50,016 nucleotides of DNA from Gonapodya prolifera JEL478 (taxonomy: Eukaryota > Monoblepharomycota > Monoblepharidomycetes > Monoblepharidales > Gonapodyaceae), in contig KQ965807.1 of NCBI GenBank assembly GCA_001574975.1, forward strand, positions 77,400 through 127,415, read 5' to 3'. Under the pieces are notes generated by a model that saw nothing but the letters and a program-made list of their open reading frames with translations, searched no databases and was not told the origin of the DNA. The position numbers were made by a program, and so were the translations under genes. Of this stretch, positions 19,631-48,575 are shown piece after piece (position 1 is the first letter of the stretch; every line of letters starts with the position of its first letter).

Positions 19631-19884
19631 GATGTTTCGGGAGGGAATTTTTTACAAAAATGGTGGCATTTGTGGACCGCAGGGGCCACGCATCATTTCT
19701 TCTTCCCCTTCCCTTCTGCAAACCTCGTTTATTAATTGATAAATTGTGAGAATACACGTCACACCAAACAGAGTTCACTAAATCCCGCACCTCGAAGTGT
19801 CAAGTCCCAGTTCCCAGCCAAAACCAGCTTGTTATTTATGGGGGTCATCCGCGGGCAAGACAGTTTGAGCGCCAGTCAATTAGC

Positions 19885-21245
19885 TTACAGACATTGGGCT
19901 TCATCTGTGACAGTACACCGACCTGAGTTTAATGTGACGCGGCTGACTTTCCACCTGGTATCCTCAAACGAGGTGCATTTCAGAGTGTGGCGTGAATGTA
20001 CTCGGGATGGTACAGTTCTTAGGTTCTCAGTACACAACAGTGGGTCTTTCTCAACATGGATGAAATTGAAGATTTCATGGGGCCTTGGGTGGAGATTGTC
20101 TTTTACGAAAATAGTGGCAGAAACTTGAGGGCAGGAATCAAGGAGCCGCTTTAGTGCCACTACAGAGTCAACAGACGAATCTATATTGGCTTCGTACTTG
20201 TCCATGACGTCCTCGCAGCCCTCCGCGATCTTCAGCTCCAGCAAATAATTGAACTCGAGAGTGTACAACCAAAGAAAGGCTCCACCACGGATTGCTGCAG
20301 CCAGGCGGTCAATCCCAGGAAATCCGAATCTGTCCAGATCACCCAGGTTGAGTTTTTCCAAGTGATTGTGCGAAGTTCAAGGAGCATATGGCGCAGAAAA
20401 TGTCAAAAGGGTCCACCCATTCCTCCAACCCTTCTAAATATGCACGTTGGGGAAACAAAATAGCAGGGACACGGGAATGAAGATTAGAGCAAGATCGGTG
20501 GCACGAAGTCGGTGGATTGTACTTTAAATGCGCCAAATTGATGCGATGATTCAAACAAACAGATTGAAACGTGGAGTAAGGTCCTAACCTTGTCCTGAAA
20601 GTAATCTTCCAGAGCATTTGAATGTGTGTCCAAAAAGTAGTAGTCCGCATCGAACTTCACTTTGGCAACGTTGATCAGGCGGTTTGAGAACTCCACAACC
20701 CACGAGATTGGGAGCTTTCCGTCAATCTCGATAGCAAGGCTTTCCAGCTTCAAAGTGCCGAATGGAAGCAAACACCTTAATGCCTCGGCAACGGTTTCCG
20801 CCGCTTTCTTTGCTGATATTTCTGCGAGTCCACTTCGTTTGAGATTAAGCTTCGGCCGAAGACAATAAGGAGACCAGGATTCGCTGCGACTATCGGGCAG
20901 AGGTTGCAAAATTTCCCTCCGTAAGTGCCGTAAGTGGGAGATCGCGTTGGATGGAGGAACGTCCTCAAGTTGTTCTTTGTTCCCGGAGCAAAACCAGGTC
21001 TGGGATCGACAAGCCATAATCGCTAGACTCGATCGATACACAAATACTAACAGTGGACGCTTTCAACGGAAAAAGTCAGTGAGGGCACCTTTGGGGCTTG
21101 AATCATTCATTGATTCACCTTGTCGGATCTCCCACTGGATCTCGCGGAATCGACGACACATTCGCGGCACATAGGTGTAGAAGCCTCTGTTTTTGGCAAG
21201 GAGAACGAGGATGCGGAGGAGGACTTCGGGCGGGATCGCGTCCAT
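19885..21245 (-). CDS. F-box protein with LRR-like body, possibly frameshifted
   Basis: F-box proteins recruit substrates to SCF ubiquitin ligases. The start MDAIPPEVLLRILVLLAKNR at 21245 carries an F-box-like helix set, followed by VPRMCRRFREIQWEI. The body reads AAETVAEALRCLLPFGTLKL, SWVVEFSNRLINVAKVKFDA, ALEDYFQDKV, and after an intron EKLNLGDLDRFGFPGIDRLA and CEDVMDKYEANIDSS. The spaced Leu pattern is LRR-like. Around 20365 the frame changes within LLELRTIT to LEKLNLGD, as though one T is missing from a T run, so the gene may be inactive or the base call wrong. The C-terminal exon structure is uncertain: the frame ends at 19885, but similarity to a remnant at 21384-21640 suggests further sequence to about 19740. 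Confidence 0.55.
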
Positions 21246-21383
21246 CGAGTTAAAAATGGGGTTGGTTCAAAACTGCGGACACAGAGATCGCTTCACGGAA
21301 GTTCCTCTTCCCCTTCCCGTTTATCTATTGCTAAAACAGCCACCTGTGATTAAAGAAGGCTGAGGATTCTCATCTGCAATTAC

Positions 21384-21640
21384 GTATCTGTTGATTAACA
21401 AATTATAATTATACCATGACACGTCAAACAGAGTTCACTTTTTCCCTCATCTCGAAGTGCCACATTCCATCTCACCGAACCTAGTAGTCGACACGTCACC
21501 ATGGTGGGACGTTGCCTGCGGAAAAGGCAAATTGAGCAGTCACCGGCCAGCTTACAGATTTTGAAGATCAACTGCGACAGTACACTGACCTGCACTGCGG
21601 AGTGCGGGTCCATTATGTCACACCTCGGGATATTTTGCAA
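21384..21640 (-). pseudogene. Remnant of the 3' end of a second F-box gene
   Basis: Nucleotides here resemble 19730-19925, the 3' region of the neighbouring F-box gene. Both contain cagagttcact, a tcgaagtg motif and the reverse-strand context of gtcRgtgtactgtcRcag. In translation VLSQLIFKICKLAGD here corresponds to VLSQMKPNVCKLIDW there. No F-box or body is found upstream; instead the segment abuts a P450 5' fragment. It is best read as the surviving tail of a duplicated gene. Confidence 0.55.
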
Positions 21641-21808: not shown

Positions 21809-22150
21809 ATGGCGTTTAGCTCGTGGATCTTAGCCGCGGTCGTCGTGTACCTTTGCGTCGAGGTTGGTGGCAAGTCGGCATCGGAACTTCGGCTCAGCTT
21901 GACCCCAACACATGTGACTCGACATGTGTACATTCACAGCTGTACAAGATGGCTTTTCTGACTTTCGAGGGCGACAAGGGCGTACACACGATGATTTCCC
22001 TCCCATTTGTCAATAAGTGAGTCTGGCGATTCCCGTCCCAATAATCCCCGGCGCTCACGTCGTCGGCAATCGACAAGCCCTCCCATCTCGTAAATTAAAG
22101 AAGTAGGTTTCTGGTCCGTTTATTGCTCCTTTGAAAGCCGTGGTAATCCG
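21809..22150 (+). pseudogene. Cytochrome P450 5' fragment (copy 1)
   Basis: This holds the first exons of the P450 family present further right. Exon 1 at 21809-21862 is a membrane anchor of 18 codons (MAFSSWILAAVVVYLCVE). Exon 2, 77 nt at 21940-22016, encodes LYKMAFLTFEGDKGVHTMIS and LPFVN, with GT-AG borders. The next micro-exon (SPPIS) ends in a TAA where the other copies have a CAA or CGT codon. P450 sequence then stops, and a fragment of F-box family 1 begins on the other strand. No oxygen-binding or haem region is present, so it cannot encode an enzyme. Confidence 0.8.
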
Positions 22151-22226
22151 ATCCCCGAAGCGTCATGTGTATTCTGAAAATTGTCCAGATTGTGGTGCCA
22201 TACAGGCCTCCAACAAAGTGGAAACT

Positions 22227-22457
22227 TCAGAATATCTCCACTTTGTCGATTCGCGCGGGCTGACCAAGTCTGTTTTCTATATTAGACAGGACTGCGACCT
22301 CGTAGCTCACTCCAAACGTGTCGCCAGGGCATCCTGGGAGCGCGCCGAGCGCGGCATTCTTGATTTCGCGAGAGAGGCGGGGGAGTGTGGAGTAGAACGT
22401 TTTGCGAGGGAGGAAACGAAAGATCCGTTGCAGGATTTGGATTTGGATTGATTCCAT
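22227..22457 (-). pseudogene. F-box family 1, N-terminal fragment
   Basis: MESIQIQILQRIFRFLPRKT, then FYSTLPRLSREIKNAALGAL, aligns with the F-box segment of the intact family member at 24498-26138 (EVLHRILRLLPPTVFYRVLP). The reading frame ends about 75 residues on and the several-hundred-residue body is missing. Upstream on the same strand (to about 22546) sequence is open in other frames only. Related pieces lie immediately to the right. Confidence 0.65.
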
Positions 22458-22689
22458 TCCAGATTGCGGGAGGGTGCCTTTGTGCTGCACCGAAAAGTTG
22501 CAGGGACTTCAAATCGCGCTACGTCGCCAATACTTTGATCCGCCAAATAATGAGCGGGAAGGCAGGATCAAAGGAAAAATTTTATGAATGTGTTCATGAT
22601 TGGAACATTGTGGTCTTCCATTTCTTTCAAATATTCGCAACAGTACCACATAAGAATCACCAGAGAGCTCCAACCAGCTCTCCTAATTA

Positions 22690-24286
22690 CTTGGCGCATT
22701 GCCCAATGTTCAAACCCACTTTCTCTGCCAACTGCACCACAGCCTGCCTTAGCACGAGGCACGCCTTTGTCACTAGTCCTGATCCTCGGTTTCCACTCGA
22801 CCCCACAACAACACTCGGACCAGTTCCCCACTCTCCATTAACATCATTGATTCCATAAAGTCACATCTCCAAGTAAAATGGTTGCCTGTCCCGCCTACTG
22901 CTCGTTTGATCTCACTGTGTTGAACAACAACTTGCTTATTTCAAGTGCCAGTGTCTCTGCCATTTAAATGTACCGCTGCTCTGATGCGAATCCCCTCTTT
23001 TCTACATGCAGGAGGAACGCGAGGTGGACAGTCGCAAGATTGGGGAGCTTCTCCTGGACCCATCCTGTAGCCGCCAAGATGTCGTCGGGCAGTCTCTGAC
23101 CTTGGTTACTGCTCAAGGATTCGATTCTATGTGGAGTGTAGTGAGATCCGCAGAACGCTGCTGGGATATGCCTGGTCGCTCCGTAAAGGGAACCTTGGTC
23201 GTGGTGAAACCCAGTATGGATGATAAGAACAGAGGCTGAGTACGCCAAACTCTGATATCTTTGGGAAGGCGCGGAGCATATAAAGGAGGGAGTGTTGCCA
23301 CTCCGCCGAAGAGGTTTGCCGTGTGCTTTTTGCCTAAGTTGGTGTCATTATAACTAATCGTATTCTTGACCTCTGGTCCGCTTAGACGTGCCGCTATATG
23401 TCGGTATCCCAAGTCGGATGTAAAAGGCAGAGATCACCAAGTTTTGTTGCGAAGGGGAATGACATCATGAGGTAAACAAACGCACTCGACCCATCCTGAA
23501 TTGACAGTGTTATTCCTGCAATGAGCTCCGAAATGTCCGTAACGCCATTCCAAACCGCAAATTCAAATTGATCTTCCCGTCGCGACTGGAACCATGCAGA
23601 TAAATGGGGAGGCGCCACCGTCCTCAAGCTTTTGCTACATTCGCTCGCGGCAAACATCCTCATTGACACCACAATGGTCAGGTAATAGAGCTCAAGATTA
23701 ATCTTGACAATGGAGGGCTCGTATTGTCGCCCGCCCATGAATAGACCTTCATACAGCAAGTGTTCTCCGAACAAGCTCGCAAACGTTTGTCCCGGCCTCA
23801 CCAGCCACTAAAAGCTGTATTGAGCCAAGAGCAAGTTCCGCTTCGCAAGCTGCCCAAAGCATCCTCCCGTTGTCGGGCGGCGGCAGTGAACAAACTGTCA
23901 ATGGCTCAAAACGAGGAAGCGAATCCGCTTGTCCACCGCGCTCAGCCGCGTCGGGCCAGTCCCACGAACCGGCAGTGTATGGGCGTATCCCACCAAAATC
24001 GTGCAGAGGACGCCAACAACGCCATCGGAGTTTCCAAGAAGTGCAGTTCGGGCAGCTCCTCCGATGCGCCTCGATAGGAGGGGAAGGACACGATACATCA
24101 CTCTGGGAAGGAGGAGCCGGAATATGCGATGGAGGATTTCCAACGGGAAATCGACGCGCGACGGTTTCTGGACTGTTGAGGGGCATCAACTGAGGTGTGA
24201 GTACCCCCGGCAGGCGAGTTGACAATCATTCGACGAGGGCGAAGGGTCATCTGACTAGACGAGGGCTTGCTGTTATGTGCGGGCAT
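22690..24286 (-). pseudogene. F-box family 1 copy, broken by frameshifts
   Basis: Pieces in different frames line up in order with the intact neighbour. They run LRPRRMIVNSPAGG (N-terminus), EILHRIFRLLLPRVMYRVLP (F-box), GRMLWAACEAELALGSIQLL, MRTFAASECSKSLRTVAPP, ATKLGDLCLLHPTWD, ILAATGWVQEKLPNLATVHL and RGFASEQRYI. A degraded C-terminus matching the family's LGLRQAVVQLGEKVGLNV comes last. At least four frame changes separate the blocks. It is adjacent to, and in the same orientation as, the intact copy, so it probably arose by tandem duplication. Confidence 0.8.
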
Positions 24287-24497
24287 CTCCGCGGTTCGTC
24301 CTCCTCAAGTGAGCCCGGTGGGGACTGAATTCGGTGTTGAGAAGCGGTTTGGGTTGCGAAGACAGGCAACAGACACGAAAATGCACCTTTTCCCGTACAA
24401 TTCAAGGAGTCATGATCTATATGTATACGTTCATAATTGGAGTATCTCCACCCATTCATTGCTTACTTCTCCAATCGAGTGCACGAAACGCCACTCG

Positions 24498-26138
24498 CTA
24501 CAACTCCTCACGTCGCCGAACGTTTAGTCCCACTTTCTCTCCCAACTGCACCACAGCCTGCCGAAGTCCCAACCGCAGCATTGTCCCGGCACTCCCTGCC
24601 CCGTCCAAGCTCGGATCCACAAGTCTCCTGTTCGAGTATCCCTGATAAGTTCCCGAAACATTGGTAATCTGATATATTACGTCTCCCACCACGATATCTG
24701 TCCTAGGTTGGTCGCGCCCCTTAACGCGCAGCGACTTGAACAACAGCTCACACATGCGGAGTTCGCTCTTCTCCGTCATTTTAATGTACTGTTGCTCGGA
24801 AGTGAAGGCCCAGTTCTCGAGAACCACGAGAAACGTGAGGTGGATGGTGGCGAGGTTGGGAAGGTTCTCGATCCACGCCAAGGCGGCCAGGATATCCACA
24901 GGCAGCTTGGAGCCTTCGTTTACATTGGACGCCTCGATTCGAATGTGCAGGGTGGTGAGATCGGGCAGTTCGCCGCTGGGGTACGCTTGTTCACCCCAGA
25001 GAGGGAATTTTGGTCGGTTGGAATCGTAGTAGCGTTTTGAGGCGCCAAGGCTGATGACGCCAAACTCTGATACCTTTGGAAATGCGCGAAGCATGTGCAG
25101 AAGAGCATGTGGCCACACTGTTGGCGAGCGGTGATCCTGAATAGTTTGTGCTTGGTCTGGTGTCACGAGAACTGACTGAACTCGTGACCTTTGCTCCAGT
25201 GAGATATGCTGACATACCTCGGCGTCCCATGTCGGATGTGGAAAGCAGATACCACGGAGCTTTGTTGTGAAGGGGAATGTCTTGAACAGGTTCACAAATG
25301 CTCTCGACCCTGCCTCGATAGGCATCCTCCCTGTGATTTCTCCAACTCCAACCTCCGTGACACCGTTGCAAATTCTGAGATCAACCGAGTTGTCGCCTTC
25401 TGGTGGCAACCATGTGGATAGATGCCCGAGTTCAATCGTTCTCAGATCATCGCCACAATAGCTCGCTGCAAACGTTCTCATTGCGTGCCATTGTTGCTCG
25501 CCAATTGATACAGCTCTGATAAAGTAGTCAAACTCCATTCGGACGACCGAGATATCACATCGGCGGCCTCCCAAAACGAGCTCTTCATCCCATCCGCCTG
25601 CAATGTTTCGCCTGATTACATCGCCAACGTTGTATCCCGCGACTAGGAGCTGATTGATTCCTAAAGCAGTCTCCACCTCACATGCGGCCCAGAATACCCT
25701 GCCATTGCGAGGCTGCTGTGAATGGTGAGTCTTCTCGAAACGAGGAAGGAAACGAAACAGCTTCTCTACCGCGTTCCACCAGTTCGGAGCAGTCGAATTT
25801 CGCGGTAGATCACTGAGGGGTCGTACGACAACGGAGCAGATGATCCCGACTTCGCCATCGGAGCAACCAGGAAGTGCAGTTCGAGCTGCAGCACGAATGC
25901 TCTTCGAAAGGCGGGGAAGAACGCGGTAGAACACCGTAGGAGGGAGAAGCCGCAATATTCGATGGAGGACTTCCAGTGGTAAATCGTCGAGTGAGTTTTC
26001 CCCCCTCCGTTGAAGGGAATCCGCATGAGAGCTCTGAGTAAGAGCGGCAGGTGATTTGATGGTCGTTCTCCGAGGCCGAAGAATCCTGCGACCAGGCGAA
26101 GATTCGCTGTCAGGCGTGGGCTTCTCTGCGTTGCGCAT
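24498..26138 (-). CDS. F-box family 1 protein, intact, 546 residues, single exon
   Basis: One uninterrupted frame. After a polar leader (MRNAEKPTPDSESSPGRR) comes an F-box-like motif, DDLPLEVLHRILRLLPPTVF then YRVLPRLSKSIRAAAR, at about residues 50-90. The body contains conserved family landmarks seen in the broken copies: NGRVFWAACEVETALGINQL, GRRCDISVVRMEFDYFIRAV, FPFTTKLRGICFPHPTWDAE, ALLHMLRAFPKVSEFGVISL, ENLPNLATIHLTFLVV and the C-terminal LGLRQAVVQLGEKVGLNV. Spaced Leu/Ile segments suggest an LRR-like solenoid for substrate binding. Its likely role is as an SCF substrate receptor, by family analogy; the substrate is unknown. Lack of introns contrasts with the rest of the window. It is divergent from P450 copy 2 across about 380 bp. 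Confidence 0.8.
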   Translation of the reverse strand: MRNAEKPTPDSESSPGRRILRPRRTTIKSPAALTQSSHADSLQRRGENSLDDLPLEVLHRILRLLPPTVFYRVLPRLSKSIRAAARTALPGCSDGEVGIICSVVVRPLSDLPRNSTAPNWWNAVEKLFRFLPRFEKTHHSQQPRNGRVFWAACEVETALGINQLLVAGYNVGDVIRRNIAGGWDEELVLGGRRCDISVVRMEFDYFIRAVSIGEQQWHAMRTFAASYCGDDLRTIELGHLSTWLPPEGDNSVDLRICNGVTEVGVGEITGRMPIEAGSRAFVNLFKTFPFTTKLRGICFPHPTWDAEVCQHISLEQRSRVQSVLVTPDQAQTIQDHRSPTVWPHALLHMLRAFPKVSEFGVISLGASKRYYDSNRPKFPLWGEQAYPSGELPDLTTLHIRIEASNVNEGSKLPVDILAALAWIENLPNLATIHLTFLVVLENWAFTSEQQYIKMTEKSELRMCELLFKSLRVKGRDQPRTDIVVGDVIYQITNVSGTYQGYSNRRLVDPSLDGAGSAGTMLRLGLRQAVVQLGEKVGLNVRRREEL

Positions 26139-26514
26139 CCTCCACTGAGAACAACGGAATCAGTTCGATTGGGGGTGGACGGCAGAACGTTGCCAAATCT
26201 GCCGGGGGTGCTTGCTGGAAACTACTCATACACGAATCCACGTAAGAGTTACTGGAAATAATAAAGACGTCGAAATTTCATTCTTGTGCGTACCACACGC
26301 TCTCTAAATAGGGAGCTTCTGAGCCTCTTCGTGGTTCAACATGATCCACAAACACAAGGTATTCCTTTTCATTGAAGTCCTCTGATACGCTTTCGAGACA
26401 GTGGCTTTGCTTCTCCGAAGTACAACCGTTCGATATACCGCAGTATATTTTAACCGGCTTCCTTTGAAGAACGTGTTCCCCACATCCCGTGGTTCGGCGC
26501 ACAGCTCGAAAAAA

Positions 26515-29035
26515 ATGTTGCTCGTCTCATGGATAGTGACGCTGGCGATCGTGTACCTTTGCGTCGAGGTTGGTGGAGCGCCTGTCGCCTCGCGGAGCTC
26601 AATCTTGTCGATCGTTCACGTGAAACCGTGTCATGCCTTTCCCGCATAGCTGAACAAGATGGCATTCATGACATTCAAGGGCGACAAGGGCGTTTACACG
26701 ATGATTTCTATCCCGTTTGTCAACAAGTAAGTCTCGTCGTGATTCATATATAACGTTGATCCACACTAACAGCTGTCCACAAGCCCTCCAGTCTCGCAAC
26801 TCAAAGTGGTGGGCTTTTTTGTATGCTTCTTTAAAGTCCTGTCGTAGCTCAAACGGTACCATGCACTGCAGCGAGACATGGTCAACCTCGAGCAACACCG
26901 AAAGTAAGTCCTTCGTTTCACCCCTAATTTGTTTCTTGCATTGAAACAACTTGTCCGTTATCCTACTTGTAAAGATACGGCTCTTTTATCCGCATTTTCA
27001 ACCCGTTCGTCCGCCAAATCTTCATTACCAAGCCAGACCTCCAACAAGCAATCTTTGTTGGCAAGGACTGGGAGCGGTTTCACGCGCTACCACCCGAATT
27101 CCGAACTGTTTATTCCGCTTTCGGGGGGGGCATGATATTTCAGGCGAATGGCAAGGAATGGCGGTGGGTGTTCGCGTACCACCGAGGAAAACTTTGTACC
27201 CTCGCGACGTGACAGCACGGACCATCCCACCCAATCTGCATCTCCAGAGAGGCTCGGGGGCTGTTCTCGAGGACTTTTACCACCGTCACCGTTCGCCAAT
27301 ACATGCTTGTCATCCACGGTACTCCTCCGATAATTAGCCAAAGAGCAGGCGTCAAACCCGGCAGGATTCGACGTTCAGACCATATACAACCTGTACACCT
27401 TTGACGTCATCAGCTGGTACCGTCATTATAATGCAGATTGAAGTCTCAACGAAACGATCGCGAGCCTCTTATCACCCCTTCGGATCATTTCCGCTTCCCG
27501 TCCCCCTCAAGATCTCGTCTTCGGCGCCTCCCTCGACATCCTCAAAGCGCGCGACCGGCACTACATCAACGCGTGGGACAAGGGCCCCATGATAGCCACC
27601 ATTCATGTGGTCCTCGGAATGCTCCTTGGTGGTGCGCCGTGGAGTGCGCAGCTGAGGGATAAGCTCTTCCCAGGTGAGATGGGAACTCATCTCTTACTGA
27701 GGGGCTATCCCAAGTGCGGCAATGATCTGTAGCACCGCCTGGACTCTGCACGCGCAGGACTCCAAGTCAAGTTCAAGGAGCAGTACGACTTCATCGACGA
27801 TCTCATCAGCACCAACATTAAAAGAGCGCATTCGGAAAAGCGCAGCGATCTTAGGTCTATCTTGGACGACACGCGACGGAGTGAGAAGCTGCCTGCCTGG
27901 ATGGACGCGGTTCAGGTGAAGAAACAACTTGTGGGTTTGTTGTCGAGGGATGGTGCCATGCACTCGAAAGGATCACCACGCTAACGCCTTGTGCCTTAGA
28001 TCGCCCTTTTATTCGCCGGGGTACGTTTAAGTACTCACCATCTCTCGACGCATTCCCGTCTCAATCCACTTACAGCACGACACAACCGGCGGTACCCTCA
28101 CCTTGTCAACCTACGAACTTTCTCGCTCTGCGGCGTGGCAAAAGGCAATCCGTCAAGAAGTACAGGAGCTGTGCCAGACACTGGTCTCTCTCCTGACGCT
28201 CTGCTCCCGTTGGAGCCTTTGGAAGACTGCAAGAGCCTCGACGCCATGATTAAGGAGACGTTGCGGTGAGTCCATCTTGCCAGGCGGGAGGTAGGCGGAC
28301 CTATTACTAACGCAGAAACACCTATTTCAAAGGATGTATCCGGCAGCTCCTATCGGTGCAGGGCGAGTTGTGCACGAGGACTTTGTCGTACCGTACGTGG
28401 ACACCTTAACAGGGAGCATAAATCTGTCGATTTCAGGAAGGGCGACATGGTGAGCCCCTCCTCTTGCTGCATGCGGTAGCCATATTGTTCCCCGCACTAA
28501 TCGTTGCTTCAGATTGTAACGAACATTTTCTACGCTGGCCGCTCCTCTGAGAACTTTTTGCGACCTGAGACGTGGGGTCCTCAGCGGTGGTGAGTGGGCG
28601 CTTTCTTTTGGTACAGAGGTACGATGCCCGAGGAGCGATTGGGTATGTTTCTGGCGATCGCAGGATCGACGACGCGACCGGAAATGGTGGAGCAATTCAT
28701 CCATTCTCCAACTCACCATTTGGGAATGGTGCACGGAAATGTCTTGGAGAGAGGTTGGCCCTCGGTGAGTCTTCATCTTGTGGCTCAGCTTTTACAGATC
28801 ATCGCGAAGGACAAATGCTAACATGTTGTTGCAGCGCAACTCCGTATGTGCTTGCCTCAATTCTGCAAAAGTGGGAGATTGGATTCTGTGACAACTACAA
28901 GGTGAGAATTCGTTACTTGCGACTGACTTGATCCGATCCATAAGGGCGTTCTTTTCGCAGTTTGTCATCGAGTCTCAAGGCACTATCAAGGCCAGCAATG
29001 GAGTCAACATAAGACTTTTTGACAATTTCGACTAA
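26515..29035 (+). pseudogene. Cytochrome P450 (copy 2), near-complete but broken
   Basis: A microsomal haem-thiolate monooxygenase gene with recognisable exons in order. These are: anchor MLLVSWIVTLAIVYLCVE (26515); 77-nt exon KMAFMTFKGDKGVYTMISIP (26650-26726); micro-exon PPVSQLK; RDMVNLEQHRK; YGSFIRIFNPFVRQIF with FVGKDWERF; RGLFSRTFTTVTVRQYM; VFGASLDILKARDRHYINAW; the I helix LLFAGHDTT; the K-helix region IKETLR with MYPAAPIGAGRVV; and the haem loop PFGNGARKCLG (about 28725). The end is ESQGTIKASNGVNIRLFDN. Breaks: a small deletion plus TAA near 27320-27335, a one-base loss near 28180 before GLSPDALLPLEPLE, and a missing G near 28420 in TLTGEHKSV. An apparent TAG at 26845 lies inside an intron. 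Catalytic motifs survive but no continuous protein is possible. Confidence 0.85.
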
Positions 29036-30804: not shown

Positions 30805-30922
30805 CGAAATCTCAAGTTCGCTCTAATGAGCCAGCAAGGAGCCAAGTCTGGTTTGCTGTTCGAAACTGAGGCCACAAACCGAGGGTTGGCTCCTCCTTTT
30901 TTTCCAACGCAGAAAGTTCCGA

Positions 30923-37389: not shown

Positions 37390-37492
37390 CAAAGAAATAA
37401 AGTGGATCGCGTGTGTCCGCAGCTCGTGTAATTACCCGCAAGTCCCCTTCCTTGTACTATAAGTCCCCTTCCTTCTTCATTTTGTGTAGCAT

Positions 37493-38648: not shown

Positions 38649-39164
38649 TTTTGCAAGGGGCCGTGTGCAGATGTGCCAATCGTTGGCTTCTGCTTTTAAA
38701 AGTCTCAGGCGAAATTTTGTCGGCACGACCCTGTCTCCCCGTTGCTCCGCCAAACGCCTTTTTTCGTTTTCAAATACATTTTTGATGAAAGGAGGTCTGT
38801 CTTACGCTACAACCTGTACACGAATGCTACCTTCAAGGTGTTAATCGAGTCTGAAGTATTTTGCGCAGAAATCCGCAATAAGCAGAAATCGGGGAGCAAG
38901 TGAATCAGTAGGTCTCAGAATCGCTCTTGGTTTACTTGGGAGTTCGTAAGTTGGCTTTGCTCGACGTGATAGCTATGGGATAAAATTTTGGGTCGCCAGC
39001 TGTCTCCCCCCCCCTCCCCCACCCCCCATTTCCTCCGCCACCGAACTTTAGTAAATCATTTTTAAGATGAGTTTTGAAACAAAGAAGGCCAGTTGGCAGG
39101 ATTACAATAGTACGAAACTTGCACACCTTACGTGCCCACTGTCGCTTCTACTTAACTTCTACGG
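38649..39164. other. Intergenic, C-rich tract
   Basis: About 515 bp between P450 copies 3 and 4. It includes the C-rich run at 39005-39028. No gene is recognised. Confidence 0.35.
39005..39028. repeat. C-rich homopolymer-like tract
   Basis: Nearly pure C, interrupted by t and a (cccccccccctcccccaccc type). Prone to slippage and misassembly. Confidence 0.85.
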
Positions 39165-41853
39165 CTACGCTGCTACAGGAAGCAGCTTTACATTCACTCC
39201 ATTCCCGGCTTTGATTGTCCCTTGCGACGCGACGACGAACTGCCGAGGTAACGTGCAAATTCTCAGGTTGTTGGTTATGCAGAAAGCCTTGACACGTCCA
39301 CGGAAACTCACCTTGTGGTTATCGCAGAAGCCAAGCTCCCATTTCTCCAAAATCAATGCGAGAACAATTCGAAGTTGGGCTGTCAAAGCGTTATGCGATG
39401 ATTTTTAACGTCAGCACTGGCAGGTAAAATAAGCGACATGCAACGACCTCACCTAAAGCCAATCTCTCTCCCAAACACTTCCTGGCGCCATTTCCAAAGG
39501 GCGAGTTCGCGAATGGGTTGATAGCACCTCCGTTTCCGGTCGCGTCATCGATCCTGTGGAATACGCACTCGGTCCATGTTTGTTTACAGAGGAAGTACAC
39601 AGTGACATACCACCGCTGCGGATCCCACGTTTCCGCGCGCAAGAAGTTTTCCGAGGATCGCCCGGCGCCCATAACGAAGGGAGAAATCTTTGACGGGCGC
39701 AGTCCGAAGTGGGTTAGAATACGGTCAAGCGAGCGCGAACATCAAGCTGATTTCCTCACCAGGTCATTCTTTTTGAACTCGACCGACTTATGCTCCCCAG
39801 TCAACGTGTCTATGTACGGCACGACAAAGTCCTCCCCCACGACCCTCCCCGCACCGTTTGGGGCCGCCGGGTACATTCTACCACATCAAAGTGGCAATTG
39901 GCAAACGCACGCGATATGTCAATTCACGTTCTGCCCAGACGTACCCCACCTTTCAGACGCCATTACTCACCTCAGCGTCTCCTTAATCACCGCGTTGAGG
40001 TTCTTGCATCCCTCGAGGGGCTCGAGGGGGAGCAAAGCGTCGTTTGGAAGGTTTAGAGAGCGTCGCAGCTCCGTGACCTCTTGGCGTATAGCCCGCTGCC
40101 AAGAGGGGGAGCGCGAAAGCTCGTAGGTCGCGAATGTGAGCGTGCCTGCTGTCGTGTCGTGCTGACCAACAGCAGCAAAAAGGCTTTACGTGTCAGGCTT
40201 CTTTGACGTCGGATCTCAAACAGCACATATCGACTCACCCCGGCAAACACCAACGCGATCTTCTCACCACAGGCTCGTGTCACCATACCTCACCTCACAC
40301 CAACACCAAATCCCAACTCACCACCTGCTTCACCAACTCTTCCGTTCCCATCCACCCGGGCAACTTCTCGCTACGCAGCGTGTCGTCCAGAATCGACCTC
40401 GTGCCGTCATCGGTGCCTGACTGAGCGCGAGCGACGTGTGTGTTGATGAGGTCCTTGATCACGGCATAGTGCTCGTCGAAGCTGTCTTTGAGGCCTGGAT
40501 AGGGATGAAGGGTGAAAGGAGAGAGCTCTTTGTTGCGCGAGGGAGAAGTAATCTTAAGTCTCAAGTACCTGGGAACAGCTTATCGCGCAAGTTGTGACTC
40601 CACGCCTCGCCGTCCAAGAGAAGGAAAAGGCCCGTACGTAGGGCGGCCAGACCGAGGCCCTTGTCCCATGCTCGGATGTAGCGGCGGTCGCGAGTGCGGA
40701 GACTATCAACAGACGCGCCGAAGACCAGGCTGGAGAAGCGTAGGAACAGAGCAAGGTGAGAGCGTCGAATGATTATGACAATCACGATGCAAAATGAACC
40801 ACTCACCGGCTAATAACGTCAAACGTGTACATATTGTAGATTGCCTGAACTTCGAATCCCTTTGGGTTCTCCACGTTCTCCTTTGAGAGTTGGTCGAGGA
40901 GAACCTGCACATAGTCGTTAATGATGGGGACATACTGTCGGACAGTGACGGCGGAGAAGGTTCTGGAGAAGAGGTCTCGAGTGTCCCTACAGGGTGGGGT
41001 TGACAAGCATAAAGTCAGGGTTGTAGAACACATTGATCACAGTTACAAGTCTTTCTTCCCTCATATGGACTTGAAACCCCCCCAGAGCTCGCGTACCTCC
41101 ACTCCTTCCCATTCGGCTGGAACAGTAGTCCGCCCGTAATCGGGCGAAACGGCTCTACAACAGGATGAGTCCCTCGGGTGTATCGCTCCCAGTCCTTCCC
41201 CACAAATATTTCGCGGAGGAGATCCGGGTTTGTGATGTGGACGACCCGCAGGAAGGGGTTGGGAAGCATGATGTGGCGGATGACGGAGCCGTGCCTGGCG
41301 CCGTTCGAGAAGCAAAAGTTTGATTTATGTTTCAAAATAAGGAACGTAAATTTGTGGGAGGACCGTGGCAACGCACTTGCGGTGAGATTCGACGTTGACC
41401 ATGTCGACCTTTATGAGGAATGTTCAGCCAAAAGATTTGAGCGTTGGTGTAGTTGATGAATCAGAACGGTATGCTGGACGTCTCCATATCTCCGAAGCGC
41501 GAATCGTCGAATTATAAGTACCTCAACCAAACGAGAGATCGGAGGGCTTATGGCAAATCGAGTTCTCTGTCAGCTCCACTTTCGAGGTCCGCGAAAACAG
41601 TTGACGGATCTTCACCTGTTGACAAAGGGGATCGAAACCATCGTGTACACGCCCTTGTCTCCCTTGAATGTCATGAATGTCATTTTGAAGAGCTTCGGAC
41701 CGGAAATGTAAAGATACAAAGGTCGATGGGGGACAGGTAGAGAATTAGGAGAAGACGGGCTTCAAAGACTTGGCGACGAGCTGCAGAGTCATCACCGACC
41801 TCGGTGCAAAGATATACGATGGCTCCCGTGACGATCCATGAGATGAGGGTCAT
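39165..41853 (-). CDS. Cytochrome P450 (copy 4), the only complete member
   Basis: An ER-anchored haem-thiolate monooxygenase of about 550 residues in some fourteen exons; substrate unknown. Exons: anchor MTLISWIVTGAIVYLCTE (41853-41800); KMTFMTFKGDKGVYTMVSIP (41692-41616); a 25-nt micro-exon SPPISRLVE (41546-41522); VDMVNVESHRK (41408-41377); HGSVIRHIMLPNPFLRVVHI with FVGKDWERY; RDLFSRTFSAVTVRQYVP; LVFGASVDSLRTRDRRYIRA; SILDDTLRSEKLPGWM; the I helix LVFAGHDTTAGTLTFATYEL with the ETLR K-helix motif; MYPAAPNGAGRVVGEDFVVP; GRSSENFLRAETWDPQRW; the haem loop NSPFGNGARKCLGERLALG (about 39490) with the cysteine ligand; LALILEKWELGFCDNHK; and ASQGTIKAGNGVNVKLLPVA. Every junction has GT-AG and matching phase, so I read it as functional. 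The overall pattern recalls CYP4/CYP52-type enzymes, a loose inference. Confidence 0.88.
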
Positions 41854-42277
41854 CGTGAAGTGGTCGAAGGTCGTTGAACAGGTACTGGTTCTGCGGTCAA
41901 TCGGTTCCGTAACATTACATAGAAATGAAGGGATACTCATCAAATGAAACATTCCAGGAGTCATCGACACCGCGTCCGTCAGCATAAGTATGGCAGAGGA
42001 TAGCTTTGACATGAATTCAATTCCAGGAACACAGGATTCTTGTCCCCAAACTGCGATTCCTATCTATAAGCTCACTCGTACGTGTCACCAAGGCAAGCAG
42101 GAGAGTGATTTTGCAGAGTATGAGGAAATTGAACGATGTAAAATTGAATGTGTACATAGAAGCCTATGGAAAAATCGCAGTGCGGCGAATGGAGCACAGG
42201 AAGATAACCCTACTTCAAATAATAGCAAGAAAATCATTCAGGGTCTAATGCCGGTACACAGTTCCGGCGTAGTCCAT
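41854..42277. promoter_or_regulatory. Upstream region of P450 copy 4
   Basis: About 420 bp upstream of the only complete P450 (- strand) and downstream of the truncated family 3 gene. An open + strand stretch from 41990 (MAEDSFDMNSIPGTQDS) looks unremarkable and overlaps the neighbouring gene's 3' end antisense, so I do not call it. Confidence 0.3.
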
Positions 42278-43078
42278 TTATACTTTAGCGCTCAGCTTAA
42301 CGTCTTCACCACACGGAATGCAGAGGCTCCACCAAGAGGAGCCTTTCCTAAACATGTGCTCCCTGCAAAATAGCTTTTCACAGTTTTTAGAGCGAAGAGT
42401 CTCGGCACACGTATGGCATTAGAATGCTCCGCACGAGGGTTCCCAACAAGAACGACCCTGCACAGGCCTTTGCAGACAAGCCTGAGATCCACATGTTGGT
42501 ACATCAACCCGAGAGCAACCAAGGCACCAAATGAATACAATCTCCGAAGTTTGTCCGGGAGGAATGTTCAATGCCTCCTCACAGACGTCACAAACACAAT
42601 CTTGGAGGCAGATCAAGCAAAGGCGCTTTGATAGCTCAATGGCTATTGGATCCTTGAGGTTCCATTTTCGGTATTCAGGAGATCTATCTGCTGCTGAAAG
42701 TCCATCCTCGCAACCCTCGCAGATGGTCGGTCGGAATTTGAGATTTGGATACAATCGTCGGAGCTGGTGCAGAAGCCGAGCATAATATCGTGGGCGCTCT
42801 CTCGTGGTGGCAGAAGTTAAGTCATTAATCCGCAGAGTTGGCTCCTTATCCGAACGGTTTGTCGAGCGACGTGGTGCTGGCGTACGCATGTAACTCGCCA
42901 AGAGCGAACACAGTGGTTCGAAGTCCAGTGCGCAATTCCGAAACGAAAGCCTTCGAATCCTCGGTAGTTGCATCGCTGCTATTGCTGTCCAGCTGGAGAC
43001 ATTTGAGCCGTCAAAGATGAGATGCAAGATACCGTCCGTCAGGCCTGGCTGCGCCATCCTAGACATTACTCCTGGCAC
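42278..43078 (-). pseudogene. F-box family 3 copy, 5'-truncated, Cys-rich C-terminus
   Basis: Aligns with the body of the gene at 44470-45495: ILHLIFDGSNVSSWTAIAAM, QLPRIRRLSFRNCALDF and LRRLYPNLKFRPTICEGCED. Then come IAIELSKRLCLICLQDCVCD, a dense CxxC region, and, after a frame change near 42420, LFCREHMFRKGS and LCIPCGEDVK with its stop at 42278. The F-box part is missing at the 5' side, where the sequence adjoins the broken end of P450 copy 5 and a small inverted piece. Cysteine and histidine spacing suggests zinc binding. Confidence 0.7.
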
Positions 43079-43090
43079 CAGCAGTCTATC

Positions 43091-43121
43091 TCAAATCGCT
43101 CGATGGATCGTCCCATTACTG
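43091..43121 (+). other. Probable inverted mini-segment of F-box family 3
   Basis: Read on the + strand these bases encode QIARWIVP, which matches KIARWIAPSM of the - strand family 3 gene (about 45293). That is the part expected just upstream of the truncated copy, but here it lies in reverse orientation at the P450/F-box junction. Confidence 0.5.
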
Positions 43122-44214
43122 AACTGCTCAGTGACTTATCCCAGGCAGTTATGTATCGGTAGTCTTGCTTCCGCAATCCATCCACAGAGGCACCAAATGC
43201 GAGACTTGAGTTGTTCAAAAGTGCATTTTGCTTTCCATCAGCTATCATGTCTCGCCGCTGGGAGTATGGAGTATGGAGACCTCACAGGCTTATAATATCG
43301 AAAGTAAACAGGTTATAAATTTCCTGCACATCAAAGCCGTCCGGATGTTCTGAATTCTTCTTAGCAACTTGATCAAGGAGCACTTGGACGTATTCGTGAA
43401 TGATAGGAACTTATCGGCGGACTGAGACCGACGAGAAGGTTCTCGTAAAAAGCTCTCGAGTTTCTCTTGAGGAATAAACATAGGTGCCGACGTTAGTGTT
43501 ATTGGAACTACCATTCAAGTAGAGTGCACCCTCACCTCCACTCTTTGCCGTTCGGCTGCAAAATTAGCGCTCCACCCACGATAGAATAAAACGGCTCTCC
43601 GATGATAGGGTCTCGAGAATACCGCTTCCAGTCCTTCCCGACGAATATCGCACGGAGGAGATCTGGGTTGGTGATGGAGATCTGCCTGAAGAAAGGGTTT
43701 GGCTGCATGATTTGGCGAATCACGGAACCGTGCCTAGCAGGGCAAATATATAAACGGGTGAGCAATGCAGATAACGGGCGCCAATCGCGTGCGCGATTTC
43801 GTTTGTACGTGCGGCGTGGACCATATCATGCTATGATGGCAAGCCGTGGGTGAGAATCGCCTCACACAAGGAAGATAAGAGTCCCTGGAATCCGATAAAG
43901 AGAGCATTGTCTCAGCCAGACGCGACAGTAGACTGTTACTCTCCAAGACAACAGTCAGAATGTTAGAATGTTAGTATAGCGCGAAGCAGAGCCACCTCAC
44001 CTGTTCACGAAAGGAATTGCAATCATCGTGTACACTCCATTGTCTCCTTTGAATGTCATGAATGCCATTTTGAACAGCTTGTTTCGTGAACAGTGGGTCA
44101 GCCCGAGACGCCAGTTACCAAACAGAGAATTGAAACCTGAGCCGACTTCTTCCCACCAAGCTCGATGCAAAAATATATGGCCGCAGCCGCGACGATCCAT
44201 GAGACAAAGCCGTG
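43122..44214 (-). pseudogene. Cytochrome P450 (copy 5), 5' half only, start lost
   Basis: The anchor exon is recognisable (FVSWIVAAAAIYFCIE) but the start position is CAC (44212-44214) and the first donor reads GAG-CTTG instead of GAG-GT. Exon 2 is intact, 77 nt at 44001-44077 (FKMAFMTFKGDNGVYTMIAI). Later parts: HDMVHAART, HGSVIRQIMQPNPFFRQISI, IFVGKDWKRYSRDPIIGEPF, GGALILQPNGKEWR, RELFTRTFSSVSVRR, GFDVQEIYNLFTFDIIS and GASVDGLRKQDYRYITAWDK. The match ends near 43120 at the junction with F-box family 3. No I helix, K helix or haem loop is present. Confidence 0.82.
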
Positions 44215-44469: not shown

Positions 44470-45495
44470 CTACTGTTCTCTTTGCAACCTCGTGCTTTCA
44501 CCACAGGGAATGCAGAGGTACCGCCTGGCAGGGTCCAAAGGATATTTGTGCTCTTCACACAAAACCAGTGCACTCTTTGCAAAATGGCCCTCCCTGTGTC
44601 GAGGAGCAGTTGCGGCAGAAGAACGTTGCGCAAGAGCTTTCGACACAGCAGGCACGATCCAGAGGATATCGACAAAGCTCCGACCTCTTGCAGAATAGCA
44701 CACGACGTTTACAGCAATTGCAGCTTACCCGTCGTGGTTTGGGATCGGGAAGGTCGTGAAACTCTTGGTTGCTCAGAAACATTGCAGCAACTTTCTGTGA
44801 GGCAACCCCAACACAACTTCTTCGATAGCTCAATCACAGAGGGTCGCCTAAGCGGCCAGCCATCCACATGTGCGCCGTCTGCGGATGCAATACTTTTGTC
44901 ACATGCATGACACAGTGTCGGTCGAAACACAAGGTTTGGAAAGCTCTCTTCGAGGAGGCGCATGACTTGCATAACTTCTTCAGTTGGCTCATCCAGAATA
45001 CTAAGGCTGAATTCGATTATGCGTAGAGTTGAGTCTCTGTTTCAAAGTCGTGTATTGCATTGCTCAGTCATATAAATGAGGTGTTCGTCCTGGAACAATT
45101 TCAAAAGATGTTCTGGAACAAAGTTGTCGCAGTTCCGAAAGGAGAGTCGTTCGATCCGGGGCAGGTTCATGGCTACTATCACTGTCCAGTTGGTGATTCG
45201 ACTCCCATCAAAGTTGATTTCCACAATCCCGGTCGCCACAAAGGCCCTCGCCATTTCAACGTCGTCCTTCATCGACGGCGCAATCCACCGTGCAATTTTG
45301 TGACAGGCATCCGGTGTATTCACCGTCTGTGAGGCCAGGAGAGAAGTCGGAGAAGTTCAAGCGCCTCCAGACGTCGCAAAACCTCACGATGGAGCGGAAG
45401 GAGCGCGATGTGGAGGAGAGTCGAACGATGGCGCGGACTGTGAGGAGACATGCTATTTCTTTCGCGACTTCGAGAGGGATGTCGGTGAGTTGCAT
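44470..45495 (-). CDS. F-box family 3 protein with Cys-rich, probably zinc-binding C-terminus; frameshifted
   Basis: The start MQLTDIPLEVAKEIACLLTV at 45495 then RAIVRLSSTSRSFRSIVRFC forms an F-box. After an apparent one-base shift near 45340 it continues DACHKIARWIAPSMKDDVEM, IVEINFDGSRITNWTVIVAM and NLPRIERLSFRNCDNFVPE. An intron or break follows, then RLLEESFPNLVFRPTLCHAC and VIELSKKLCWGCLTESCC. A cysteine-dense region comes next (SCNCCKRRVLFCKRSELCRY; CCVESSCATFFCRNC), and finally LVLCEEHKYPLDPARRYLCI and PCGES. The Cys/His order implies two or more zinc sites after the F-box. The reading frame changes at least twice, so the functional state is doubtful. F-box plus Cys-rich tail is an architecture I do not recognise. 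Confidence 0.55.
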
Positions 45496-45727
45496 TTTTT
45501 GGCGAGGTGCATGGCAGAACTTCGACCTTCAGCTTCAAATCAAAAAGATTGTGGGACAAGGGACGGCATCGAAGAGCAATGGACACGGTCGGACAAAACA
45601 TGATAAGTGCGCTCGCATATTCCTCTACAATCAACACAATACATTCCGAGTGACGCTGCAGGCAACCATCAGATCCGGCACCTGTCCGACCGCTCCACTC
45701 CCCATCCACCGAGTCCCAGACAACCCT

Positions 45728-46530
45728 TTACTCGTTCTCCGCCGTCCTCAACTTGGCACCACCGTTAAGTACCCTGACGCCGAGCTGCGCGGCCTTCTCG
45801 ACAATCTTGACACGCTCGCGGGCGCTGACGCCACGGGCGACCTCGGCGGCGTAGGAGCGGTTGTGCATGAGGAGCAGGTCGAGGTCCGAGGTGGAGCGCA
45901 CGGAGAACTTGTAGAAGCCGGAGGGGAGGAGGTGGCGGGTTTTGGAGTTGGATCCGTACCTGTGGTGGAGCGGAATAGAAGGTCGAGTTAGAAACGGGGT
46001 TGTACCACATCCAGCCATATTATCAATTGAGAGCTTCCTCTCCTTAAGCGACTCAAGAAGCAGCCGTTCTGAACACTCCCAGTCGCCTATGCAGACGGTT
46101 CACTCCAAAGACAAGCTTAACGTCCAGAACCTCCGAAGTGTAAATCACTACCACCCCCGCGGGTGTAGTACTCCGAGAATAACATCCTTAATCGCACAGA
46201 CTCTGTCCAGATGTCGGCGTCCATGAAACTCCACCGACAACCTCCATTCCTCCCCACATCCCCGTTCCTCCTGACAGTTATGTACTGACCCAATCTTGGG
46301 CAGAGGGATGTTACCTCTGAACCGACGGCGAGCACGGTTGTCAATACCACGGGGGCGGCGCCACGAGGTCTAAGATGCAATCGAAAAGGTGGTCAACGGA
46401 TTTCAAGAACACATGCGACATACACAAAGGAACTCACGGGAACCCTCATGTACCGGTCCGAGTGGAACCGGTTGAACTTCCCGGTGCGCTTCTTCACGAT
46501 CTTCGTCTTGTTGACAGGAGTAACGGTCAT
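45728..46530 (-). CDS. RPL32: 60S ribosomal protein L32 (eL32)
   Basis: A large-subunit ribosomal protein. Three exons: [20 protein letters not shown] then [11 protein letters not shown] (46530-46438); [20 protein letters not shown] then IPLPKIG (about 46371-46292); and [60 protein letters not shown] and RTAENE (about 45960-45728). Each block matches the universal eL32 sequence, including KIVKKRTKKF, WRKPRGIDNR and the RAAQL region. Splice phases agree (the second intron splits the Gly codon of KIGYGS). Total about 130 residues, normal for the family. The second intron (about 330 nt) is longer than most in the window. Confidence 0.95.
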
Positions 46531-47187
46531 GGCTTTAGGAGTGAAGTGTTCGGAGCAAGGTCAGAAGGACGAGGTGGACGAAAGCACAGGAGTAGCAGTC
46601 CAGACGAGTAACAGGGACGCAGCTTTTGTGGAACGGCCGCGCGAGGCTCTCGCAGTCCAACTGCGGCTGTTCACCACCAACACAGTCCACCACCAAGAGA
46701 GGGTCACTCCGTTCAACAGTTCTCCCCATTCGCCGATGCCTCCCTCAGTTAAGTCTTCGTCGTTTCTCATCCTTGTGATGCTGTCGCCCTGTCGCCCTGT
46801 CGCAGTGTCCATGCCCCGATGCTTCCCGCCACCCACTTCCATCCATCCATCCATCCCATCCATCCATCCATCCATCCCTTCCCCTCTCATCCCCTATCCG
46901 CAGTACACCTCATTGACTTCCTCCCATCGACATCTCCATTCGGCCGGCGGTCCATATCCTCACCTGCTGTCCTTCACCGGTAATCGTCGTCGTTCCTCGG
47001 TCACAAAACTCGGCAGTGTGCACAGACCACTTCGCCATCAATTTTGTATTTACCAAACCACAATCATTCGCTCAAACCGAAACAATCGATGTCCTCTTCC
47101 TCGCTTCGAGGTTCCAAGTTACGGGGAACGTTCCGAGGTCAATCCTTGGAGAATGCAGCCGCCTAACTTCGTCCTACCTGCATCTCT
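46531..47187. other. Intergenic with CATC repeat
   Basis: About 650 bp upstream of eL32 and of the divergent F-box family 1 copy. It contains the tetranucleotide repeat noted separately. The ORFs here are compositionally biased (Pro/Ser/His), with no recognised product. Confidence 0.35.
46839..46878. repeat. CATC tetranucleotide microsatellite
   Basis: About nine units of catc with one interruption (ccatcccatc) in the eL32 upstream region. Confidence 0.9.
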
Positions 47188-48575
47188 CCTCTCGAATCAC
47201 TGCCCGTCGAAGTACTGCATCGCATCTTACGACTTCTTCCCCCAAAAACCTTCTACTCTGGGGCACTCCGGCTGTCCCGCTTCATGAACACAGCAGCTTG
47301 GAATGCCATCCCGGATGCCTCAATGGGGAGATCGGTGTATTCTGCACCCTCTAGGGCTGTTGGCAACTTTCTGATATTCAATGAGACGCGACCACCGCTG
47401 GACAGTTTCCTCGTTCTCCCTCGCTTTGAGCTTTGAGGTCACCTCGGGATCCAGACCATCGGAAAAAGTGTGGGCCGCATGCAAAGTTGGATTGAAAGTT
47501 ACTCTCGGTCAGCTCGCGTCGTCCGGTCGGAATGTTAAAAGAATTATCTACGGATCTCTCTCGGGGGAGGGGCAAAGGAATGTCTTTCCCCACGGACGAC
47601 TTCTGAATTTGTACCCAGTCAAATTCGTATTGGGTTTTCCAGCAAGAGGAGGTCGAATGCTTCCAAGTAATCAGGAAAAAGCAGCAACAGCCCTCACTGC
47701 GTTCGCAAACGCAGCAGGAGTAGAGGAGCGCGTGGAGCTGCGGAGCTCCCACTTTTTGCAGAATGTGGACGAGCTGTGGAACCATGTGAAAAAACTCTCC
47801 GTCTCCGACCTCACTGGTATGGGAATTGACCGTGGAGTGATGACGCAGGGCGTGGTTGTGGAGATGTCCTTGAAGAAGTTCCCCCGATTGACGCACATAT
47901 TTGGGTTATGCTTTTACAACGGAAATTCTGCGAATTTCGTGATACAAAAAGTAACCCTGGAGAGAAGATCCCGCATTCAGTCGGTAATTGTACCTCCATA
48001 CGCGAGCGACAACCGCTTATGGCTCATTCGGCAGGAGGACATATTTTTGACCTTTCGGGTTTTTCCTCATTTGATTTGGTGCTATACCAACCGGTGCCAC
48101 AAGTGGATTTAACCCGTTTGAGTTTGAACCACAAATGGGGCAACCTGGGCACCCGAACTTTGTTCTTCCCAATGTCACCAAACTTGTGATCGGTGCAGAG
48201 GCACGCAATATTGATTCTGGGAAGCCGACGTCGTCATCCACGAAAAATCTGCTACATTGGATTACCAATGCTCTTCCTGGACTCACCAATGTTCTCCTCC
48301 TGCTGCAAATAATGTACGATGATGGTGAACTCCATCCAGAAGCTGTTCAGCCAGCTGAGGACGCGGTTGTCGACCTTGCCCGACAGATCTTCATGGCGAT
48401 TCCGCCGGACTGTCGAGTCAGTCTGACTTACATTGGGTTCTGCAGAAGTCCTGGATCTCTTTCAAAATGGTCCGATGAGCAAAAGCACTCTGTGAGACAT
48501 TCTTTGTCGGACAAAGTTGTGGAAGTTGCGAGGAACACAAGGCTTGAGTCGGGCGTGGTCTGTCGTTGGAGCTGA
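47188..48575 (+). pseudogene. Divergent F-box family 1 copy, frame-broken
   Basis: The F-box block LPVEVLHRILRLLPPKTFYS followed by GALRLSRFMNTAAWNA closely matches the intact gene at 24498-26138. The frame then ends at TTTGAGCTTTGA near 47430. In a second frame the body continues: EKVWAACKVGLKVTLGQLAS, FPRLTHIFGLCFYNGNSA, LERRSRIQSVIVPP (matching LEQRSRVQSVLVTP) and FLTFRVFPH. In a third frame it goes on MGQPGHPNFVLPNVTKLVIG, HWITNALPGLTNVLLLLQIM and HSLSDKVVEVARNTRLESGV, with a stop at 48575. An in-frame TAA at about 47167 separates the F-box from the nearest upstream ATG (47089). It is the only family 1 copy on the + strand and lies more than 16 kb from the others. Confidence 0.72.

Follow-up and report, generated by a model that had tools for sequence, protein, structure and literature searches.

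An F-box and cytochrome P450 gene cluster at an inversion breakpoint of Gonapodya prolifera, present in two versions

Large expansions of F-box genes are found in mushroom-forming fungi. The F-box genes of these fungi are described as including orthogroups that are specific to complex multicellular fungi (PMC8893723). Tandem P450 genes with many small introns are reported for the P450ome of Phanerochaete chrysosporium, and were attributed to extensive duplication and rearrangement (PMC1184071). In the dikaryon of Laccaria trichodermophora, the two nuclei are reported to carry different allelic versions and to vary in gene composition and in synteny, which inflates the assembly (PMC10995626). 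Here, we describe a locus of Gonapodya prolifera JEL478 in which F-box-type genes are mixed with relatives of one cytochrome P450. The window, which is the whole stretch of 50,016 nucleotides that was analyzed, corresponds to positions 77400-127415 of contig KQ965807.1 (C77) in an assembly of 47.56 Mb and 207 contigs.

Like the white-rot clusters, this locus contains tandem P450 genes with many small introns (PMC1184071). Unlike those clusters, for which the abstract of that paper mentions no F-box genes, most copies are broken here and the two versions of the segment differ. The parallel with L. trichodermophora is the assembly with unresolved haplotypes that we propose below, but that study covers whole assemblies and carbohydrate enzymes, and its abstract names neither an F-box/P450 cluster nor an inversion (PMC10995626). 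The abundance of F-box genes is akin to that in mushroom-forming fungi, here for the best 150 of 523 candidates, but PMC8893723 concerns orthogroups and not physical neighbours. An F-box/P450 cluster was not described in the listed titles and abstract openings of the open-licence literature searched, which does not prove its absence. P450 tandem clusters, abundant F-box genes and structural differences between nuclei are thus already known singly, and their joint occurrence at one locus is a modest addition.

Self-comparison, translation and Pfam searches identified 12 F-box-type loci or fragments, falling into four sequence groups, between 19.7 and 48.6 kb of the window; five relatives of one P450 are interspersed among them, and a Trm7-type methyltransferase gene sits in their midst (Table 1). 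A preliminary description of this DNA had counted about eleven F-box-type loci of at least three families and five P450 relatives, with few of them intact. These analyses confirm it in substance, although the Trm7-type gene in the middle had gone unmentioned. Lesions were scored in 15 of the 17 F-box-type and P450 loci, leaving out the A-like fragment and the edge locus. Among these 15, P4, A2, B1 and B3 may be intact, and the others are broken or truncated. The lesion counts refer to aligned codons, were obtained with a purpose-written splice- and frame-aware aligner, and depend on the query and the penalties; stops within inserted codons, which are present in P2, A4, two copies on contig C41 and a further P450 named X (C77:187-189 kb), are not counted. 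The label "intact" is therefore tentative for the window copies, as it is based on aligned codons and not on start, stop and splice sites. Intact and broken paralogues are adjacent and, as detailed below, mostly predate the split of two versions of the segment, and hence the cluster is of the birth-and-death type. This multigene cluster is old and prone to recombination, and it lies at an inversion breakpoint; nothing points to a functional link between its F-box and P450 genes. We consider it probable that four F-box groups, one P450 family and the Trm7-type gene among them form a cluster that turns over by structural mutation, and that its two versions are most likely haplotypes.

We searched the whole genome with the P450 and the group-A, group-B and group-D proteins. 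Close relatives of all four were found jointly at one other place, C41:199-235 kb. Outside the locus, the nearest relatives of groups A (C79:146234-147233) and B (C21:225179-225958) reached 55% and 54%, respectively, with stops counted within the match. C41 was initially a candidate for an independent second F-box/P450 cluster, but this was dropped once the flanks were compared, because the homology extends far beyond the cluster. Wherever corresponding pieces were compared, C77 and C41 are homologous end to end, over about 200 kb with gaps, and this includes the Trm7-type gene and ordinary genes. C77:83.8-98.4 kb corresponds to C41:296.0-281.8 kb in reverse orientation, C77:99-185.2 kb to C41:204.7-273.3 kb, for the most part in the same orientation, and C77:186.7-203.0 kb to C41:204.7-181.1 kb, again reversed. 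Spot checks near the contig ends paired C77:28.2-35.9 kb, in pieces, with C41:355.0-346.0 kb, and C77:228.6-232.9 kb with C41:156.0-151.7 kb. Counting aligned bases, identity is 65-95% overall, mostly 75-95%, and 83-91% in the longest flanking blocks; the lowest values are mostly paralogous matches within the cluster. The C77 stretches lacking a match on C41 are 125.2-137.2 kb (mostly N), 141.8-146.9 kb and 174.1-181.8 kb, the last corresponding to a retroelement. Since C41 is the homologous counterpart of the same region, the mixture present there is not an independent recurrence.

The two versions differ by a large inversion of 69-88 kb, the segment spanning 86-88 kb in C77 and 69-77 kb in C41. 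The inversion was implied by the first matching blocks, and its far end was then confirmed in C41:266-296 kb. A single point in C41 (204695/204696) is split in C77 to positions 98990 (window 21591) and 186726, and the other breakpoint, C41:273305-281531, corresponds to C77:98650 (window 21251) and 185215. The left breakpoint lies at the left end of the cluster, between the edge F-box locus and P1. In addition, three smaller rearrangements inside the cluster leave genes broken. The first is at P1, whose match to the P450 copy C41#2 ends at window position 22144, after which a stretch mainly in opposite orientation starts. The second is the P3/P4 block, which may reflect either a gain or a loss. 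The third is a difference of about 1.8 kb through which D1 lacks its 5' end and P5 its 3' half in C77, and these two truncated genes point to loss in C77. The earlier suggestion of a recombination-prone region is therefore supported, both by the large inversion with its junction on the left and by the three internal rearrangements that break genes.

At both C77 junctions of the inversion there are relatives of the edge F-box locus in inverted orientation. The relative of the edge locus lies at C77:186578-185348, and the counterpart of the edge locus itself is found from C41:281.8 kb onward. With 69% identity these inverted relatives are too dissimilar to be a by-product of the inversion, because the flanks at C41:204.7 kb share 93-95% identity. 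The arrangement of the cluster is most plausibly due to breakage and unequal exchange within a region rich in similar genes, with repeats perhaps promoting the breakage, and such structural events would break whichever gene sits at the junction. The joint decay of F-box and P450 genes would then be due to a common breakage-prone stretch and not to a joint function.

Next, we estimated the age of the copies from synonymous divergence (dS) and from trees of nine P450 and nine group-A copies; P1 was too short for either approach, and groups B and D were analyzed by dS only. Inside the window, dS of the P450, group-A, group-B and group-D pairs is always above 1 or undefined. Across contigs, much lower values were obtained: 0.145 for X and C41#1, 0.23 for B2 and C41b, 0.35 for D2 and C41b, 0.53 for both P5 and C41#4 and A1 and C41c, 0.66 for B1 and C41a, 0.67 for A2 and C41b, and 0.71 for D1 and C41a. 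By dS and in the trees, most window copies are closest to a C41 copy. The pairs P5/C41#4, P2/C41#2 and A1/C41c are strongly supported in the trees, X/C41#1 and A3/C41d less so, and A2/C41b was not resolved. Most births thus came before the two versions separated, and deaths continued afterwards.

Are C77 and C41 two haplotypes, or two loci of a single nucleus? Homology runs along the segment and includes single-copy-type genes, and further copies of these were not found. The Trm7-type gene was found on the C77 and C41 segments only, a third match on C54, at 43-48%, probably being another FtsJ member. The dS between counterparts of flanking genes is 0.07-0.57 in 12 frames, which were taken from stop to stop, include untranslated or intronic parts, and whose stops and frameshifts were not taken as lesions. 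This range resembles the 0.07-0.52 found in four proteasome exons. A haploid set is expected to contain three RPB2-type and 14 proteasome genes. RPB2-type genes were found at three places, and the 16 proteasome loci represent 13 distinct genes, at least three of which are doubled (two pairs on C58/C35 and one on C25/C18). Alignment of the C58/C35 and C25/C18 regions gave 90.0% identity over 4.7 kb and 83.6% over 6.1 kb, respectively. One of the nine TCP1/Hsp60-type genes looks doubled (C184/C39), judged by matching scores and coordinates only, and not counting a weak fragment on C39. The resulting 4 doubled genes out of 22 proteasome and chaperonin genes are a lower bound obtained by inspection. 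Because genes elsewhere are doubled at a like divergence, scattered segments evidently persist in the assembly in a second version, and C184/C39, C58/C35 and C25/C18 are probably further pieces of a second haplotype.

The alternative is that a segment of about 200 kb was duplicated within one nucleus and later inverted, and that both clusters then decayed. The dS values, up to 0.57 in the flanks and 0.71 in the cluster, are high for alleles, and most of the single-copy-type genes examined are present once, both of which speak for this alternative. However, the Trm7-type gene and ordinary genes are doubled while no further Trm7-type gene was found, the other contig pairs with doubled proteasome genes of like divergence are not explained by one segmental event, and a dS varying from 0.07 to 0.57 along the segment is unlike the outcome of a single duplication. 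We therefore regard a segmental duplication as unlikely, while giving it some weight. That the cluster or the inversion is an artefact of the assembly is very improbable: the junctions are repeat-rich and there is a run of N of 8 kb at C77:127416-135424, but the content of the cluster and much of its order are independently present on C41, and both flanks of the inversion match C41 over many kb. This run of N lies directly to the right of the window, whereas in C41 the corresponding flanks are just 1.85 kb apart. On the basis of these sequence comparisons, C41 most likely represents the second haplotype of an assembly that was not fully collapsed. C77 and C41 would then be allelic versions of one segment, carried by the nuclei of a dikaryotic or otherwise heterozygous fungus, and the simplest account is a dikaryon with incomplete collapse of its haplotypes.

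Several observations weigh against this interpretation. A dS of up to 0.57 in the flanks and of 0.66-0.71 in the cluster (B1, A2 and D1) is very high for alleles, and the value of 1.30 for A3 and C41d is hardly allelic. P3, P4, B2b and B3 have no clear counterpart on C41, and the pairing of P2 with C41#2 rivals that of P1 as the counterpart of C41#2. Only 4 of 25 single-copy-type genes, RPB2-type genes included, look doubled, which demands partial collapse or purging. The two C41 breakpoint regions showed no homology to each other, so that an inversion through inverted repeats was rejected and a repeat-driven inversion is without support. Moreover, the correspondence between C77 and C41 was established from sampled pieces and a best-hit map rather than base by base throughout, and the repeat-rich junctions may have been misassembled.

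We then analyzed whether F-box and P450 genes are neighbours elsewhere in the genome. Merging 97 rows gave 78 P450 loci and 150 rows gave 147 F-box loci, corresponding to the best 150 of the 523 F-box candidates and to 92 of the 164 P450 candidates; B1 and B3 are the only window loci in this F-box list, from which group A of the locus is absent. Chance levels were obtained by circular shifts, with contig sizes that were mostly estimated (assumed sum 43.5 of 47.6 Mb). The numbers of P450 loci having a listed F-box locus within 5, 10, 20 and 40 kb were 0, 2, 7 and 16, versus 2.4, 4.7, 9.0 and 16.3 expected. Hence, the listed P450 and F-box loci are not neighbours more often than expected (7 of 78 within 20 kb versus 9.0), within the limited power of this test. 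At the level of groups, the places counted outside C41 and C77, without a chance level, were 56 for group A, 31 for group D and 17 for group B; all rows on C41 and C77 were set aside, as were repeated rows of the same locus. None of the 13 other P450-relative loci has a group-A, group-B or group-D match within 10 kb, and only one (on C75) has any within 30 kb, namely a group-A and a group-B neighbour. Groups A and D are at most 30 kb apart on C79, C93, C21 and C29, and groups A and B on C62, from which it follows that the F-box groups do neighbour each other. A block of F-box and P450 genes was not found at independent loci of the genome.

These results bear on the idea, put forward in the preliminary description, that F-box and P450 genes were duplicated together as one block, which would yield repeated A-P450 and D-P450 pairs. 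Its order is recurrent in that group D lies upstream of a P450 (D1-P4 and D2-P5) and group A lies head to head with one (A2-P2, and C41a with C41#1). However, the adjacency of D1 and P4 was created at the 5 kb presence/absence block, and the arrangement on C41 is the counterpart of the same locus. The within-contig pairs all have a dS above 1 where a value was obtained, and hence unit duplication and independent tandem duplications are indistinguishable by age. As the mixture recurs only on the C41 counterpart, the window pairs are this divergent or undefined, and the listed loci are no closer than chance in a test of limited power, we did not retain co-duplication and consider it improbable in general, although for the old duplications it is possible.

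A functional link, in which turnover dependent on the SCF (Skp1-cullin-F-box) ligase would let the F-box proteins regulate the P450 or its pathway and selection keeps the linkage, is extremely improbable. The adjacency is repeated, and the low ratios of nonsynonymous to synonymous divergence (0.05-0.19) among P4, X, C41#1 and C41#2 reveal past constraint on the enzyme, but the 0 of 13 P450-relative loci with a group-A, group-B or group-D neighbour within 10 kb and the 7 of 78 P450 loci near a listed F-box argue against it. F-box proteins dock to Skp1 in the SCF ligase, and P450s with a hydrophobic N-terminus are typically located in the endoplasmic reticulum. From what is known of these families, the F-box end of the intact proteins would dock to Skp1 while the remainder binds a target, and the P450 would sit in the endoplasmic reticulum. 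The intact copies would thus most likely act independently, as ordinary SCF adaptors and as an ordinary membrane-bound monooxygenase.

The positions of the loci and of the structural differences are given in Table 1.

Table 1. Features of the F-box/P450 cluster. Loci appear in their left-to-right order, followed by structural differences from C41 and a conserved P450 stretch.
Feature	Window position	Strand	Description
Edge locus	19888-21266	-	F-box-like, fourth group; left edge of cluster, adjoins inversion junction
P1	21591-22144	+	P450 5' flank and first exons, cut off at 22144; protein at 21821-22017
A-like fragment	22230-22508	-	Piece of group-A-like F-box gene; blastp to A copies
A1	22705-24298	-	Broken group-A F-box gene; 6 frameshifts, 4 stops; 49% identical to A2
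A2	24501-26159	-	Group-A F-box gene; single open frame, 546 residues from first Met
P2	26515-28904	+	Full-length P450 copy, broken; 5 frameshifts
A3	29392-30714	-	Broken group-A F-box gene; 9 frameshifts, 2 stops
B1	30830-32340	+	Group-B F-box gene; two open frames (309 and 219 residues) flanking a probable intron
B2	32387-33265	+	Broken group-B C-terminal piece without F-box; 3 frameshifts, one stop
B2b	33269-34032	+	Broken group-B C-terminal piece without F-box; 3 frameshifts
B3	34398-35864	+	Group-B F-box gene; frames of 248 and 222 residues, probable intron between
Trm7-type gene	36067-37389	-	tRNA 2'-O-methyltransferase gene with introns; 36067 is the open-frame end, not a determined stop
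P3	37496-38645	-	N-terminal P450 part, query positions 2-297 of 482; 3 frameshifts
P4	39309-41853	-	P450 copy; no stop or frameshift found
D1	42422-43090	-	Group-D gene without F-box end; counterpart C41:228095-228715, 72%
P5	43069-44205	-	N-terminal P450 half; one stop; abuts D1
D2	44712-45528	-	Group-D F-box gene; one stop, one frame change
A4	47191-48605	+	Distant group-A-like locus, 38% identity; 5 frameshifts and 1 stop under A2 model
Left inversion junction	21252-21590		Left side continues C41:281.5-281.8 kb, right side C41:204695; best-hit map
Small inverted stretch	22146-25463		Versus C41:218387-215261; A-like fragment, A1, part of A2; one 71-base piece maps elsewhere
P3/P4 block	37373-42428		About 5 kb, not present on C41 (flanks join at C41:228095); best-hit map
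Deletion junction	43061-43124		C41:228715 joined to 230509; about 1.8 kb missing; best-hit map
Conserved P450 stretch (~84 bases)	21938-22020, 26645-26734, 38415-38499, 41612-41695, 43996-44079

Matches above the Pfam cut-off confirmed the F-box in groups B and D, namely in B1 and B3 (PF12937, 31.8 and 27.5 bits, cut-off 24.3) and in D2 (PF00646, 30.4 bits, cut-off 20.5); B2, B2b and D1 lack the F-box part. The matches of A2 (PF00646, E 0.007, 16.7 bits), A4 (PF12937, 20.9 bits) and the edge locus (PF12937, E 0.018, 15.3 bits) are below the respective cut-offs, and these three loci are F-box-like only. The A-like fragment gave no Pfam match. The group-B lesion query was built from B1 itself; B3 has no frameshifts and one aligned stop inside the probable intron. 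The irregularities of B1 and B3 appear to be confined to one short common stretch that is intron-like. D2 is probably broken, and part of B2 (window 32444-33255) is 91% identical to C41:225797-226627.

The query for the P450 alignments was built from P4 itself, and thus the alignment of P4 shows just that its exons are open. The exon-joined P4 protein matches PF00067 with 148.2 bits (cut-off 22.8) over profile positions 25-438 of 462, and it matched 176 PDB sequences, the best being CYP3A7 (E 1e-19). It has a hydrophobic N-terminus and contains ETLR and FGNGARKCLG, which we take to be the ExxR motif and the heme-binding Cys loop, respectively. FGNGARKCLG is common to P4, X, C41#1 and C41#2, and ETL is present at an exon end in the latter three. 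These four copies appear open except for one frameshift call in C41#1 and one inserted stop in X, both at exon edges, where the intron may perhaps be read. P1 is 93.5% identical to C41:204695-205246, the 5' end of C41#2, a copy in which no aligned stops or frameshifts were found. The counterpart of P5, C41#4, retains the C-terminal half but has 3 frameshifts. The best conserved DNA of the P450 family includes a 5' stretch of about 84 bases (MAFMTFKGDKGVYTM...; 74-89%), which is retained even in the truncated P1, P3 and P5. The Trm7-type gene gave FtsJ matches of 68 and 58.7 bits, and its best PDB match is a tRNA (cytidine(32)/guanosine(34)-2'-O)-methyltransferase (E 3.3e-86).

Other features were observed on the two contigs. 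A long terminal repeat (LTR) retroelement at C77:174292-181689 has reverse transcriptase, RNase H and integrase frames and terminal repeats that are 94.9% alike; it is absent from C41 (site C41:269729/269866). Conversely, a 7 kb stretch of C41 without a match in the compared C77 stretch contains a frame of 624 residues with ten Sel1 repeat stretches (C41:209818-211689). Left of the cluster, a perfect two-copy tandem repeat of 63 bases (window 15281-15409) lies beside a frame containing leucine-rich repeats (15581-16426, minus strand; LRR_1 18.0 bits, under the cut-off).

It has also to be considered that the two nuclei carry structurally different versions of an F-box/P450 supergene, in which the inversion anchored at the cluster blocks recombination between divergent sets that are maintained by balancing selection, for example as a recognition or xenobiotic-response polymorphism. 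We judge this to be quite improbable. As to mating-type genes, a search for STE3 gave no match, its control being likewise silent, and homeodomain genes were not searched for.

In summary, a suggestive partnership of F-box and P450 genes is replaced by one locus that exists in two versions and has named junctions where genes are disrupted. When a cluster appears a second time in a fungal assembly, the extra copy may belong to the other haplotype and should not be counted as an independent recurrence. If the inversion is confirmed and turns out to be kept by selection, this locus would offer a tractable case of divergence of the F-box repertoire between nuclei.

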